Assembly (NCBI RefSeq): GCF_022899935.1
Contig: NZ_JALJCJ010000002.1
Span: forward strand, 496,001-560,000
DNA length: 64,000 nt
Origin: Shinella curvata
Lineage (GTDB): Bacteria; Pseudomonadota; Alphaproteobacteria; Rhizobiales; Rhizobiaceae
Reading direction: 5' to 3'
The notes under the pieces were generated by a model. It saw only the letters and a list, made by a program, of their open reading frames with translations. It did no database searches and had not been told where the DNA came from. The position numbers and the translations under genes were made by a program. This document shows positions 3,199-35,829 of this stretch, in pieces. Each line of letters opens with the position of its first letter. Positions within the stretch are counted from its first letter, which is position 1.

Positions 3199-3390
3199 TT
3201 GGGCGTTGCCCGGCACTGCAGTGGGGAAAACCGGGGTGTAGATTTGAATTAAGGAATATAAGCCTATATCGGGGATGTCGATCGCATATTTATGAATAGA
3301 TTCAATGGCTGGTTGCATCGAGCTGCTTCATTCATCCCCGCTCTTGCTCTAGGGTGTATGAATAAATTCCTATCAACGGAGTGGCCAGTC

Positions 3391-3846
3391 ATGCATCAGT
3401 TCATCGTATCCCAGAGGCGGGCGTCCCGAAATTGCCGGTCTGCGGCACCGGAAACCAAAGGTGCGGGGGGCGGGCAGGAGGGCGCTCGGCGTGCGGCGGC
3501 GGATCCTGACGGGCCGACCGTGCCGCCGGGTGTCGCCTGCCGGATCGTGCGCCAGCTCGTGCTGGAGATGACGGCCATGGCAAGCGAGCGGCCGCTGTGG
3601 CGCCGCGACGGCCGGCGCTCCACCTGCCATGTGCGCCAGATCGCCATGTATGTCTGCCATGTCATCCTGCAACTGTCCCTGTCGGATATCGGCGCGGCCT
3701 TCGGGCGTGACCGCACGACGGTCGGCCATGCCTGCAACGTGGTGGAGGACCGGCGCGACGACGCCTCGTTCGATGCCTTCGTCGCGTCGATCGAGCGTGT
3801 CGTGCTCTCGGTCTTCGGTCCCGCAGGGATCGGCAGCCATGGTTGA
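3391..3846 (+). CDS. Orphan DnaA domain IV-like DNA-binding protein
   Basis: A 151-residue protein. Residues ~60-145 resemble the C-terminal DnaA helix-turn-helix domain: CHVRQIAMYVCHVILQLSLS, then DIGAAFGRDRTTVGHA, which matches the DnaA signature around 'GRDHTTVLHA'. The AAA+ domain is absent, so it cannot be an initiator; it may bind DnaA-box-like DNA. The ATG at 3391 is chosen because GGAG lies ~10 bases upstream. The ORF opens at 3292 but without a good RBS. It overlaps the next gene by 8 bases, indicating a two-gene operon. Confidence 0.75.
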   Translation: MHQFIVSQRRASRNCRSAAPETKGAGGGQEGARRAAADPDGPTVPPGVACRIVRQLVLEMTAMASERPLWRRDGRRSTCHVRQIAMYVCHVILQLSLSDIGAAFGRDRTTVGHACNVVEDRRDDASFDAFVASIERVVLSVFGPAGIGSHG

Positions 3847-27611: not shown

Positions 27612-28223
27612 ATGGCAATCGATCGCAAGGTTTTTTTCGACGGCGTGCGCGGCGCGCTTTATGACGGGCGGTTGGCGGGAACGCAGGTCGCCGGGCTGAC
27701 GGCCTTGCTCGACCGCTTCGAGGCGGGCGGCGAGACAAGGGACCGGCGCTTCCTCGCCTATATGCTGGCGACGGCGCACCACGAAACCGGCGGGCGTCTG
27801 CAGCCGGTGCGCGAGACTTTCGCCGAGACGGATGAGGCGGCGATCGACAGGCTCGACCGGGCTTTTGCCGCCGGAAAACTGCCGCAGGTTTCCGAGCCCT
27901 ATTGGCGGCGCGATGCGGCGGGGCACAGCTGGCTCGGGCGGGGGCTGGTGCAGATCACGCATCGGCGCAACTACGAGCGGCTTTCGGTGCTGACGGGCAT
28001 TGACCTCGTTTCCCGGCCGGAGCGGGCGATGGAGATGGCGGTTTCCGTGGACATCCTCTTCGTCGGCATGCTGCGCGGGGCCTTCACGGGGCGGCGGCTG
28101 GCGGGCCACTTTTCGGCGGGCCGGGCGGATTGGGTGGGTGCGCGACGCATCATCAACGGGCTGGACAGGGCCGAGCGCGTGGCGGGGTACGGGCAGGCGT
28201 TTTTCGCGGCGCTGGGCGGATAG
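27612..28223 (+). CDS. Putative lysozyme/GH19-like muramidase inside the GTA cluster
   Basis: A 203-residue protein that begins 2 bases after the terL stop. It contains 'MLATAHHETGGRLQPVRETF' with a likely catalytic Glu, 'GRGLVQITHRRNYERLS' and 'ERAMEMAVSVDILFVGM', the pattern of GH19/lysozyme-like enzymes of rhizobial phages. There is no signal peptide, so export would need a holin; a holin-like gene closes the cluster at 41010. RcGTA has no such gene at this position. A cell-wall-degrading role in release is inferred. Confidence 0.72.
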   Translation: MAIDRKVFFDGVRGALYDGRLAGTQVAGLTALLDRFEAGGETRDRRFLAYMLATAHHETGGRLQPVRETFAETDEAAIDRLDRAFAAGKLPQVSEPYWRRDAAGHSWLGRGLVQITHRRNYERLSVLTGIDLVSRPERAMEMAVSVDILFVGMLRGAFTGRRLAGHFSAGRADWVGARRIINGLDRAERVAGYGQAFFAALGG

Positions 28224-33218: not shown

Positions 33219-33622
33219 GCGCAGCAGGGGCCTTGCAGAAGGCGATCTACGAGAGGCTGTCGGGCGATACGGCCCTGACGGCGCTGCTCGGCGGCAATGC
33301 CGTGACAGACCGGCGCCTCGACGCACCGGTCGCGCCCCTGGTGGTGGTCGCCGGTATTGTCAGTTCCGATCATTCGACGGCGACGGAACCGGGCGAAGAG
33401 CACATGGTCACGCTGGATATCTGGTCCGATGCGGCCGGGCACCGGCAGGCGCAGGCTATCGCTGCCGCCGTGCGCTCGCTGTTGCATGATGCGGCGCTCG
33501 TGCTTGCCGGCTATCGCCTGGTGTTGCTCTTCCATCGCGAGACACGGCTCTCGCGCGACGGCAAAACCCGCTTCCACCACGCCGAAATGCAGTTTCGGGC
33601 TGTGACGGAACCGGCAACCTGA
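33215..33622 (+). CDS. GTA tail terminator-like protein, DUF3168 family (g8)
   Basis: A 135-residue protein. 'LQKAIYERLSGDTALTALLG' opens it, followed by 'VTLDIWSDAAGHRQAQAIAA', both typical of DUF3168, which includes tail completion/terminator proteins. It overlaps g7 by ATGA. In RcGTA the equivalent protein caps the tail at the head junction. Confidence 0.88.
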   Translation: MSAAGALQKAIYERLSGDTALTALLGGNAVTDRRLDAPVAPLVVVAGIVSSDHSTATEPGEEHMVTLDIWSDAAGHRQAQAIAAAVRSLLHDAALVLAGYRLVLLFHRETRLSRDGKTRFHHAEMQFRAVTEPAT

Positions 33623-33647
33623 ACAACCTCAAGGAAAGGACCTGACC

Positions 33648-34055
33648 ATGGTGGCACAGAAGGGGCGGGATCTGCTGCTCAAGATCGAGAACGGGGCCGG
33701 TTTTGCGACCGTTGCGGGGCTGCGGTCGAAGCGGCTGTCGTTCAACGCGCAGCTCGTCGACGTGACGGATGCGGATTCGGCGGGGCGCTGGCGCGAACTT
33801 TTGGGCGGCGCGGGCGTGCAGCGCGCGGCCGTGAGCGGCAGCGGCATTTTCAAGGACCAGGCATCCGACGCGCTGGTGCGCACGGTGTTCTTTGCCGGAA
33901 CGATTGCCGAATGGCAGATCGCCATTCCTGAATTCGGCATCATTTCCGGCCCGTTCCAGGTGGCGGCGCTCGAATATTCCGGCGCGCATGACGGCGAGAT
34001 CCTGTTCGAGATCGCGCTGGAATCGGCGGGTTCCTTGACCTTCGAGGCGCCCTGA
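33648..34055 (+). CDS. GTA major tail tube protein, TP901-1 family (g9)
   Basis: A 135-residue protein. 'VAQKGRDLLLKIENGAGFAT', 'RSKRLSFNAQLVDVTDADSA' and 'FEIALESAGSLTFEAP' match the TP901-1 type tail tube family. AAGGA precedes the ATG. The stop shares a base with the g10 start (TGATG), which couples tube and chaperone synthesis. Confidence 0.92.
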   Translation: MVAQKGRDLLLKIENGAGFATVAGLRSKRLSFNAQLVDVTDADSAGRWRELLGGAGVQRAAVSGSGIFKDQASDALVRTVFFAGTIAEWQIAIPEFGIISGPFQVAALEYSGAHDGEILFEIALESAGSLTFEAP

Positions 34056-34411
34056 TGGGCGCGCGGGCGAACCGGCGGCGCGGCGAGATCGAAGCCTTCC
34101 TCGACGGCGAGCGGCGGGTGCTCTGCCTGACGCTCGGCGCGCTCGCCGAACTGGAGACGGCTTTTGCCGTCGACAGCATGGCGGGGCTGGCCGAGCGCTT
34201 CTCTTCCGGCCGGCTGAAGGCGGATGACCTCATCCGCATCATCGGTGCGGGACTGCGCGGCGCCGGCAACCTTTTCAGCGACGAGGACGTGGCGGGCATG
34301 GCAGTGGCCGATGGGCTTGCGGGCTTTGCGCGCATCACGGCCGAGTTGCTGCAGGCGACATTCGAGGCGGAGGGCGAGGCGTCAAACCCTCCGGTGCCGC
34401 ATTCGGCCTGA
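34055..34411 (+). CDS. GTA g10 family tail assembly chaperone
   Basis: A 118-residue protein. 'RRRGEIEAFLDGERRVLCLT', 'LGALAELETAFAVDSMAGLA' and 'ADDLIRIIGAGLRGAG' are the GTA-gp10 pattern, a family classed with phage tail assembly chaperones. Near its 3' end the message carries A AAC CCT (34384-34390). A -1 slip there would replace the last 7 residues by the 74 residues of the next frame. This mirrors lambda gpG and gpGT. The zero-frame product is the entry given here. Confidence 0.88.
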   Translation: MGARANRRRGEIEAFLDGERRVLCLTLGALAELETAFAVDSMAGLAERFSSGRLKADDLIRIIGAGLRGAGNLFSDEDVAGMAVADGLAGFARITAELLQATFEAEGEASNPPVPHSA

Positions 34412-34423
34412 GCGCGGAGGCCG
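34369..34423 (+). promoter_or_regulatory. Candidate programmed -1 ribosomal frameshift signal
   Basis: Three elements are in order: an SD-like GGAGGG (34369-34374), the slippery heptamer A AAC CCT in the g10 frame (34384-34390), and a 6-bp hairpin CGGCCT/AGGCCG (34404-34423). The -1 frame entered is exactly that of the second tail assembly chaperone. Confidence 0.6.
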
Positions 34424-34611
34424 CTGCCTTCCCCTGGGAGGCGGTGCTTCATGCCGGGCTCTGCCGGATGCGGCTTCCCGCGACGGCCTTCTGGGCCATG
34501 ACGCCACGCGAACTGGCCTATGTGCTCGGCCTGCTGCGGCCCCTGCCGATCGCGACGCGGCGTGAAGAGCTGATGGCCTTGATGCAGGCCTTTCCCGACG
34601 AAAAGGAGTGA
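34384..34611 (+). CDS. Second tail assembly chaperone domain (rcc01693-like), likely made by -1 frameshift from g10
   Basis: The -1 frame encodes FPWEAVLHAGLCRMRLPATA followed by FWAMTPRELAYVLGLL, the pattern of the rcc01693 tail assembly chaperone family (RcGTA g10.1). No ATG, GTG or TTG occurs in this frame between the upstream stop (~34225) and the conserved FPWE. The first candidates are GTG 34444 and ATG 34468, both inside the conserved domain. The start coordinate given is the slippery site. A truncated protein from 34444 or 34468 is the alternative. Confidence 0.65.
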   Translation, partial: KPSGAAFGLSAEAAAFPWEAVLHAGLCRMRLPATAFWAMTPRELAYVLGLLRPLPIATRREELMALMQAFPDEKE

Positions 34612-34614
34612 ACC

Positions 34615-35166
34615 ATGGCGCAAGCCGACGACCGGTCGCTGGATGGCACCAAGCAGACCGCCGAGCAGCTTTCGACAATTTTCGACGACCTGGAGGCACG
34701 TTCCCGCTCTTTCGGTTCGGCGCTGACGGGTGCGCTGAGAGGCGCCGTCATCGACGGCAAGGGGTTGGAAGGCGTGCTCACCGGGCTTGCCCGGCGGATG
34801 AGCGATATCGCGCTTTCGGCCGGGTTGAAGCCGCTGGAGGGGGTATTCTCCTCCGGCATTTCCACGCTGCTAGGCGGCGTGACACCCTTCGCCAAGGGCG
34901 GCGTTGTTGCCTCTCCGACCTATTTCAGCAGCAGCGGCAGCGGCGGCGGGCTTGGCCTGATGGGCGAAGCCGGGGCGGAGGCGATCCTGCCGCTGAAGCG
35001 CGGGCCGGACGGCGCGCTTGGCGTGGCGACCGAGGGCAGCGGCAATGCCGGCGCGCGCATCGTTTTCAACGTGACGGCGCAGGATGCGGCGAGCTTCCGG
35101 AAATCCGAAGGGCAGATCGCGGCCATGCTGACGCGCGCCGTCGGGCGCGGGCAGCGCAGTTTGTGA
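34615..35166 (+). CDS. GTA tail tape measure protein, short (g11)
   Basis: A 183-residue protein. 'LTGALRGAVIDGKGLEGVLT' and 'MSDIALSAGLKPLEGVFSSG' are the conserved GTA tape-measure helices; the C-terminal 'LMGEAGAEAILPLKRGPDGA' is a widespread tape-measure signature. It is short, consistent with the short GTA tail. AAGGAG precedes the ATG. It directly follows the two tail assembly chaperones, as in tailed phages. Confidence 0.9.
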   Translation: MAQADDRSLDGTKQTAEQLSTIFDDLEARSRSFGSALTGALRGAVIDGKGLEGVLTGLARRMSDIALSAGLKPLEGVFSSGISTLLGGVTPFAKGGVVASPTYFSSSGSGGGLGLMGEAGAEAILPLKRGPDGALGVATEGSGNAGARIVFNVTAQDAASFRKSEGQIAAMLTRAVGRGQRSL

Positions 35167-35193
35167 GGCTGGGCCTCGAAACCGGAGACAGAC

Positions 35194-35829
35194 ATGGCAG
35201 GATTTCACGAGGTGCGGTTTCCGCTGCGTGTCGCGCTCGGCACGAGCGGCGGGCCGGTCCGGCGCACGGACATCGTCAGCCTTTCCAACGGGCGCGAAAA
35301 CCGCAACCGACGCTGGCAGGATGCGCGGCGGCGCTACGATGCGGGATCGGGTGTGCGCTCGATCGACGATCTCTATGCCGTGCTCGCCTTCTTCGAGGCG
35401 CGGGCGGGGCAATTTTACGGGTTCCGGTTTCACGATCCCGTCGACCACAGGTCCGGCGCGCCGGCGGCATCGCCCGCGGCGGGAGACCAGGAGATCGGTA
35501 CGGGCGACGGCACGACGGCGGCCTTCCAACTGGTCAAGCGCTATGCCGATGCCGGAGGCGGAACGATGCGCATCATCGAAAAGCCGGTGGCGGGCACGGT
35601 GATCGTCTCGGTGGCGGGCAGTATTGTGCCGGTGGACGACTATACGGCGAATGCCGCGACGGGCATCGTGACCTTCAAGCCGGGCAAGGTTCCGGTTTCG
35701 GGCGTCATCCGCGCGGGGTTCGAATTCGACGTGCCGGTGCGTTTCGATACCGATCGTCTCGACATCGATCTCGCGCAGTTCAATGCCGGGCGCATTCCCT
35801 CCATTCCGCTCGTGGAGATCAAGCCATGA
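35194..35829 (+). CDS. GTA distal tail protein, DUF2460 family (g12)
   Basis: A 211-residue protein. 'GFHEVRFPLRVALGTSGGPV', 'SLSNGRENRNRRWQDARRRY' and 'FFEARAGQFYGFRFHDPVDH' are hallmarks of the DUF2460 family. In RcGTA this is the distal tail ring. It overlaps g13 by ATGA. Confidence 0.93.
   Translation: MAGFHEVRFPLRVALGTSGGPVRRTDIVSLSNGRENRNRRWQDARRRYDAGSGVRSIDDLYAVLAFFEARAGQFYGFRFHDPVDHRSGAPAASPAAGDQEIGTGDGTTAAFQLVKRYADAGGGTMRIIEKPVAGTVIVSVAGSIVPVDDYTANAATGIVTFKPGKVPVSGVIRAGFEFDVPVRFDTDRLDIDLAQFNAGRIPSIPLVEIKP

Follow-up and report, generated by a model that had tools for sequence, protein, structure and literature searches.

The window, a 64,000-nucleotide stretch of a Shinella curvata contig (NZ_JALJCJ010000002.1, positions 496,001 to 560,000), carries the head-tail gene set of a predicted RcGTA-type gene transfer agent. 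The cluster encodes the large terminase, portal, protease, capsid, connector, head completion, tail completion and tail tube proteins together with g10, g10.1, a short tape measure protein, a DUF2460 protein, the hub, an NlpC/P60 protein and GTA_TIM (1.8e-129). A GH19/chitinase-like protein (PF00182, 6.1e-6) is encoded at 27612-28220 (+) between the large terminase and portal genes and is possibly a lysis enzyme. The features around g10 and g10.1, in window coordinates, are the following.

33648..34055, + strand: g9, tail tube protein (PF06199 Phage_tail_2, 2.3e-42), adjoining g10 on its 5' side.
34055..34411, + strand: g10, tail assembly chaperone 1 (PF11836 Phage_TAC_11, 4.6e-28), 118 residues in the zero frame, stop TGA at 34409-34411.
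34369..34374, + strand: SD-like GGAGGG, a putative 5' stimulator 9 nt 5' of the heptamer, read from the sequence and matched by a pairing peak at the same spacing in relatives.
34384..34390, + strand: candidate slip site A AAC CCT (AAC 34385-34387, CCT 34388-34390), in the g10 register.
34391..34393, + strand: CCG (Pro), the next zero-frame codon after the slip site, read from the sequence.
34396..34402, + strand: 3' element GCCGCAT (GCCGCA 5 nt past the slip codon), conserved in relatives.
34404..34423, + strand: 6-bp stem, CGGCCT 34404-34409 with AGGCCG 34418-34423, 13 nt past the heptamer; not conserved.
34390..34611, + strand: predicted -1 frame part, g10.1, tail assembly chaperone 2 (PF09550 Phage_TAC_6, 5.4e-13; TIGR02216 'rcc01693 family', 1.1e-15), reading SGAAFGLSAEAAAFPWEAV...FPDEKE, stop at 34609-34611.
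34408..34410, + strand: CTG overlapping the g10 stop (CTGA), a near-cognate rival start, read from the sequence.
34615..35166, + strand: g11, short tape measure protein (NCBIfam RcGTA_tape, 1e-40, 139.8 bits, under the curated cut-off of 220).

The profile matches run in the order tail tube (PF06199), PF11836, PF09550 and RcGTA_tape (the last below its curated cut-off), in agreement with the first-pass annotation, which had placed the chaperone pair between the tail tube and tape measure genes. The tape measure protein (34615-35166) has only 183 residues and covers positions 37-218 of the 220 in RcGTA_tape. The AF2 model of g10 (pLDDT 90.7) produced weak Foldseek matches to viral tail assembly chaperones, the best one so named having an E of 7.1e-3, and one viral match under E 0.001, which is without a name; the g10.1 model has a pLDDT of 82.6. 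Comparison of the g10 model with the PDB gave no match at E <= 0.001, and a search of the PDB with the g10 sequence of the window gave none. The weak profile matches in the PDB, with E no better than 0.006 and 0.0013, involve TALE repeats and a designed protein and were disregarded. An Rfam scan of 33600-35200 returned no match.

A sequence scan agrees with the earlier placement of A AAC CCT at 34384-34390 in the register of the 118-residue g10 frame (34055-34411). Only two X XXY YYZ sites occur in the approximately 600 nt from 34055, at 34384 and 34591, and the second lies past the g10 stop. From 34228 onwards the -1 frame meets no stop before 34609-34611, and its first ATG, GTG or TTG is GTG 34444, already inside the domain. 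The claims that this frame runs to 34611 with no such codon before the domain, and that GGAGGG (34369-34374) precedes the heptamer by 9 nt, are correct, with the addition of CTG 34408, which had been overlooked. Slippage at the heptamer would yield a g10-g10.1 fusion of 112 + 73 = 185 residues, where approximately 186 had been proposed, and the predicted GluC peptide across the fusion junction is ASNPSGAAFGLSAE. The description of the heptamer as 'textbook' was overstated, as Y is C here and falls outside the classical consensus, in which Y is A or U according to the PRFect paper (PMC10885494). AAACCCT is not among the heptamers described as highly shift-prone in those parts of the literature that were examined.

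Relatives were searched for in 21 genomes of the genus, 199 of the family, 385 of the class and 40 and 80 of two further families, and g10 and g10.1 were located with profiles built for this analysis. A record of Shinella sp. PSBB067 contains g10 at 85.6% identity. The family search gave a match in 148 of the 199 genomes, two of them Shinella; one locus was taken from each of 130 others, picked by score, with weaker copies outside the sample. These 130 loci, from the family group of the window, are referred to as Rhizobiaceae and are separate from the 18 Shinella loci. Loci left out were L014 (the same locus as L001), L020 (no pair), L021-L023 (prophage copies) and L068, L070, L072 and L080, in which no chaperone pair was found. 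The class sample comprises 29 loci taken from 52 matching genomes, 25 of them with the chaperone pair. A record-titled set consists of the best 80 of 561 relatives, R. capsulatus not being among them, and contains by NCBI group 38 Roseobacteraceae, 34 Paracoccaceae, 5 other Rhodobacterales, 2 Alphaproteobacteria and 1 unplaced record. Raw locus counts in these samples are inflated because related sequences are not independent.

A slip motif is present in all 18 paired Shinella loci (17 AAACCCT and one CGCCCT-TGA) and in 100 of the 130 Rhizobiaceae loci, one of which (L143) is a wrong call with a -1 stop in its linker; together they make up the 118 slip loci considered below. This recurrence supports the reading of a programmed -1 frameshift put forward in the first-pass annotation, and alignment across Rhizobiaceae, the check that it had proposed, finds the heptamer, the SD-like element and the lack of a start codon all recurring. 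The 100 family slip loci divide into 69 with AAACCC(T/C), 27 with other triplets before CC(T/C)-stop and 4 with other heptamers followed by a stop. Relative to g10, g10.1 lies in the -1 frame in 18/18 Shinella loci and in 121 of the 130 Rhizobiaceae loci, the others being +1 (8) or 0 (1). The end of g10 is C-CC(T/C)-stop in 80/130 Rhizobiaceae loci, and g10.1 is in the -1 frame in 80/80 of these across 12 linker lengths of 20 to 80 nt and all three stop codons.

The motif is also confined in position and in codon choice. In the 130 Rhizobiaceae loci, in-register AAACCC(T/C) occurs at 0/11,700 g10 body codons versus 67/3,025 tail codons, once per locus in 67 loci, and in the 80 record-titled loci at 0/1,250 tail codons and 3 in 7,200 body codons. 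The Pro codon of 90 Pro-stop g10 ends is CCT in 68, CCC in 13, CCG in 8 and CCA in 1; in neighbouring coding sequence CCT accounts for 67/840 Pro codons. The codon after the slip is a stop in 81 of the 100 other family loci, and in Shinella it is Pro in 12/18, a stop in 4, Arg in 1 and Leu in 1. Excess variation at third positions is slight in the linkers of Shinella, in contrast to those of the other family loci.

A 40-nt sequence model of the cassette, built from 59 sequences, picks out the g10/g10.1 junction as its top match in each of the 18 Shinella genomes that have the pair, 14 of which did not enter the model, with modest per-genome E values of 1.3e-5 to 0.023. On 61 family genomes, the 23 best matches lie at g10 by coordinates, many of them members of the model. 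The two matches ranked next, L345 and L346, lack significant similarity to g10 or g10.1 and were regarded as chance. The AAACCCTTGA cassette is also carried by two contigs deposited as 'Bacteriophage sp.', L183 (MW462191.1) at 3390 and L184 (MW091529.1) at 3399. In both of these phage-collection records the annotated second gene begins 18 nt inside the domain, so that the FPW end is lost, and a frameshift may explain the short g10.1 annotation in the group.

Start codons tend to take the place of the slip motif. The stretch that begins 60 nt before the slip and ends at the domain lacks ATG, GTG and TTG in 11/18 Shinella and 31/100 family slip loci. Neither a canonical nor a near-cognate start lies between heptamer and domain in 19/100 family slip loci but in only 2/18 Shinella slip loci, so that the case in Shinella rests on the conserved heptamer and its flanks. 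ATG or GTG is found within 60 nt upstream of the domain in 23/100 slip versus 23/30 no-slip loci (Fisher p 1.6e-7, ignoring relatedness). On the tree the slip trait changes 19 times; 9 independent contrasts are supported, and on average the start changes against the slip trait in 5.0 of them and along with it in 0.1, with a median p of 0.06. In all 80 record-titled loci, nearly all of them Rhodobacterales, a start codon lies shortly before the domain (ATG/GTG in 77, TTG in 3), and neither C-CCY-stop nor AAACCC was found in any of the 80. In the family of a query whose g10 segment is identical to that of two Ruegeria records, ATG or GTG is present in 31/32 further loci. Since 23/30 no-slip Rhizobiaceae loci and 80/80 record-titled loci have a start codon, the putative slip device is lineage-specific and not a property of all GTAs. 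A normal start for the second frame without a slippery site, which the earlier annotation had set against its own reading, is thus found in other lineages, but all 18 Shinella loci keep the slip motif.

Anti-SD pairing in the slip loci peaks at 7-mers starting 17-14 nt before the heptamer and exceeds that of synonymous resampling (z -5.3 in the family and -3.1 in Shinella). An SD match of at least 4 nt lies within 26 nt of the heptamer in 74/100 family and 12/18 Shinella loci, compared with 32% and 46% of control windows; no 4-nt match lies in this range in 26/100 and 6/18. Matches to the SD string at a spacing of 9-14 nt, the range given for -1 shifts in parts of a review (PMC5009743), occur in 10/18 Shinella and 40/100 family loci. 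On the 3' side, GCCGCA is present in 18/18 Shinella and 66/100 Rhizobiaceae loci, and GCCGC stands 5 nt past the slip codon in 82/100 family and 18/18 Shinella loci. Read in the -1 frame, the codons of this element are GCC in 93/100 and GCA in 69/100 family loci; among 2,602 nearby Ala codons, GCC is used 950 times and GCA 243 times. The element GCCGCA(G/T), 5-11 nt past the slip in Rhizobiaceae, is kept at synonymous sites, and no pairing partner for it that is general to the Rhizobiaceae loci was found.

Folding of 45-nt windows in the 118 slip loci gives z values near 0 at 0 to +10 nt after the slip, and the lowest mean scanned, -0.44 at +15, is close to values elsewhere (e.g. -0.37). Downstream structure was therefore rejected as a general stimulator on the basis of this weak average fold signal and retained only for loci with long stems. 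Stems of at least 9 Watson-Crick pairs (9-13 bp) start 3-6 nt past the slip in 15/118 slip loci, and 14 of these 15 end at most 4 nt from the start of the domain, with pair changes on both sides. Stems of at least 10 pairs (start 3-12) number 13, whereas shuffled sequences give 0.4 and nine other offsets give 0 to 2. The 6-bp hairpin noted earlier at 13 nt past the heptamer is present in the window but is not conserved in Shinella: pairing is full in the window alone among the 18 loci, 5/6 pairs form in two others, and the Shinella alignment shows almost no covariation. Of the parts of a dnaX-type signal, the SD-like element at 9-14 nt is present, whereas a stable conserved downstream hairpin is not found.

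The preferred reading, to which a probability of roughly 0.88 is assigned, is that g10 and g10.1 are a phage-type G/GT tail-chaperone pair and that a fraction of ribosomes slip -1 at A AAC CCT to produce the 185-residue fusion; programmed -1 frameshifting at g10/g10.1 is, on these comparisons, very likely. The register, the frame, the conservation of the elements, the frequent lack of starts and the alternation with start codons can be read directly from the sequences. Most ribosomes would finish g10 (118 residues), and a fraction would slip -1 at A AAC CCT, the Pro-tRNA presumably moving from CCU to CCC. The slipped ribosomes would make the 185-residue fusion with the second chaperone domain, a product that may act as a chaperone. 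Slippage is probably made more frequent by the SD-like element approximately 9-10 nt upstream and by GCCGCA 5 nt downstream. The ribosome would probably pause, in most of the family, at the stop codon right after the Pro codon (Pro-stop) and, in Shinella, mostly at a second Pro codon. Strict tandem slippage cannot be general because the first triplet is non-homopolymeric (GGA, CCG and others) in 27/130 Rhizobiaceae loci, and for the same reason single P-site slippage appears the more favourable mechanism. A more specific proposal is offered tentatively and with considerable doubt. The Rhizobiaceae cassette might be a distinct kind of -1 signal, in which a single Pro-tRNA slips from CCU or CCC to CCC while the A site is stalled by a stop or a second Pro codon, aided by the SD-like element and by an unpaired GCCGCAG acting on the ribosome directly and not by folding; GTA lineages would then have alternated repeatedly between such a signal and a conventional start codon.

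The second domain could instead be reached by translational coupling, with g10.1 starting independently at a non-standard codon that overlaps the g10 stop (CTG 34408 in the window, the TTG of TTGA in many relatives) and no fusion being made. TTG does overlap the stop in 56/80 Pro-stop loci, for which reason initiation could contribute in those species, but the overlap codon is TTA, CTA or CTG in 24/80. Likewise, CTGA is present in the window and a canonical start occupies the CTG position in 3/18 Shinella loci (ATG in L012, GTG in L013 and L019), all with the heptamer retained; the codon at this position nevertheless varies across Shinella (CTG, ATG, GTG, CCG, GCG and ACG) while AAACCCT is kept in 17/18. 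The start codons just upstream of the domain in the record-titled loci also favour coupling, against which stand the 19 family slip loci lacking any canonical or near-cognate start between heptamer and domain. The SD-like pairing is tied to the heptamer, approximately 10 nt 5' of it, and by the standard of ordinary initiation stands a long way from the overlap codon. A start codon would have no need of AAACCC. Coupling is thus judged unlikely as the explanation of the locus.

Still less probable is that the block is conserved for another reason, such as a DNA- or RNA-binding site or the C-terminal peptide of g10, and that the -1 frame is incidental. The conservation of GCCGCA at synonymous sites speaks for this reading, but the -1 frame in 80/80 Pro-stop loci, the mutual avoidance of slip motif and starts, and the other alphaproteobacterial loci in which a -1 overlap goes with other heptamers and the domain has no preceding start all argue against it, and a conserved peptide does not explain the use of CCT over the commoner CCG and CCC. 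Slippage of the polymerase and not of the ribosome would likewise connect the two frames, through a transcript of altered length. The site, however, has no run longer than AAA and the CCC that follows it, and bacterial transcriptional slippage is described, in the review cited above, on runs of 9 A or T (PMC5009743), so that this origin of the second frame is highly improbable.

Different sites occur in other lineages, where alphaproteobacterial loci with other heptamers have a -1 overlap and no start before the domain. In another family, C CCT TTC and T TTC CCT overlap exactly at the FPW codons in 8/9 loci examined, and the ninth (L210) has C CCT TTC alone; the same overlapping pair is found at the FPW codons of L056 and L060, elsewhere. 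Three of these loci have a -1 frame that becomes open no more than 9-12 nt upstream, and most of the remaining loci of that family have ATG or GTG starts. A second chaperone pair, probably of prophage origin, is present in three Shinella genomes (L021, L022 and L023), with G GGA AAC and no start before the domain; L022 (G000:C11:14894-15010) is the prophage-like pair in the genome of the window itself.

No description of a frameshift in the tail chaperone genes of a GTA was found in the literature searched, mostly papers available without subscription. In one GTA paper g10 is called tail chaperone 1 and the gene after it, g10.5, tail chaperone 2, and the word 'frameshift' does not occur in its main text (PMC11409702); the main text of an RcGTA structure paper is likewise free of frameshift terms (PMC7296036). 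The nearest cases in this literature are a +1 shift proposed for a Wolbachia GTA-like hydrolase (PMC10299305) and unrelated phage cases. Should R. capsulatus follow the Rhodobacterales pattern, that would account for the shift not having come to light in studies of that model. The comparison indicates that phage-style recoding can be retained by domesticated GTAs as a means of setting how much of a tail chaperone is made. The loci also offer naturally occurring variants of the slip site, with AAA, GGA, CCG or another triplet before CCY and a stop or Pro after it, from which the requirements of -1 slippage on a Pro codon could be learned.

The arrangement resembles the G/GT genes of lambda and other tailed phages in that the pair adjoins the tail tube and tape measure genes, the -1 shift would occur near the end of the first gene and the second domain has no start. 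The lambda G/GT slip site is G GGA AAG, whereas here it is (A AA)C CCY, mostly with a stop directly after it and with SD-like and GCCGCA flanks, and the element is a GTA. Shifts of -1 in tail chaperone genes are established in phages, lambda included, according to the review (PMC5009743); most of the R. capsulatus phages studied are said, in another paper, to have such a signal (PMC8601537); and the tail-chaperone shift of phage Adele was argued by the same kind of comparison (PMC12846349). The GTAs of the Rhodobacterales, the relatives of RcGTA, share both protein families in the same order, but differ in having an own start for the second gene in 80/80 record-titled loci (the best 80 of 561) and neither C-CCY-stop nor AAACCC.

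Among bacterial genes, the -1 shift of E. coli dnaX shares the SD-like stimulator at 9-14 nt, and its 3' hairpin has a counterpart in a minority of the loci here (PMC5009743 for dnaX); its heptamer is different, and Shinella has a 3' sequence element in place of a conserved hairpin. In a few bacteria, by the same account, a zero-frame stop directly follows the dnaX shift site (PMC5009743). The tsh genes of Listeria phages PSA, A118 and A500 likewise have a Pro codon right before the stop of a tail gene (PMC5009743), but shift +1 at (AAA) CCC_UGA, in a phase other than that of the -1 shift proposed here at C CCU UGA. The prfB gene (release factor 2), with CUU UGA, similarly combines a stop in the A site with an upstream SD-like element (PMC5009743), and differs in that its shift is +1 and not -1, its SD lies at 3 nt and the shift is autoregulatory.
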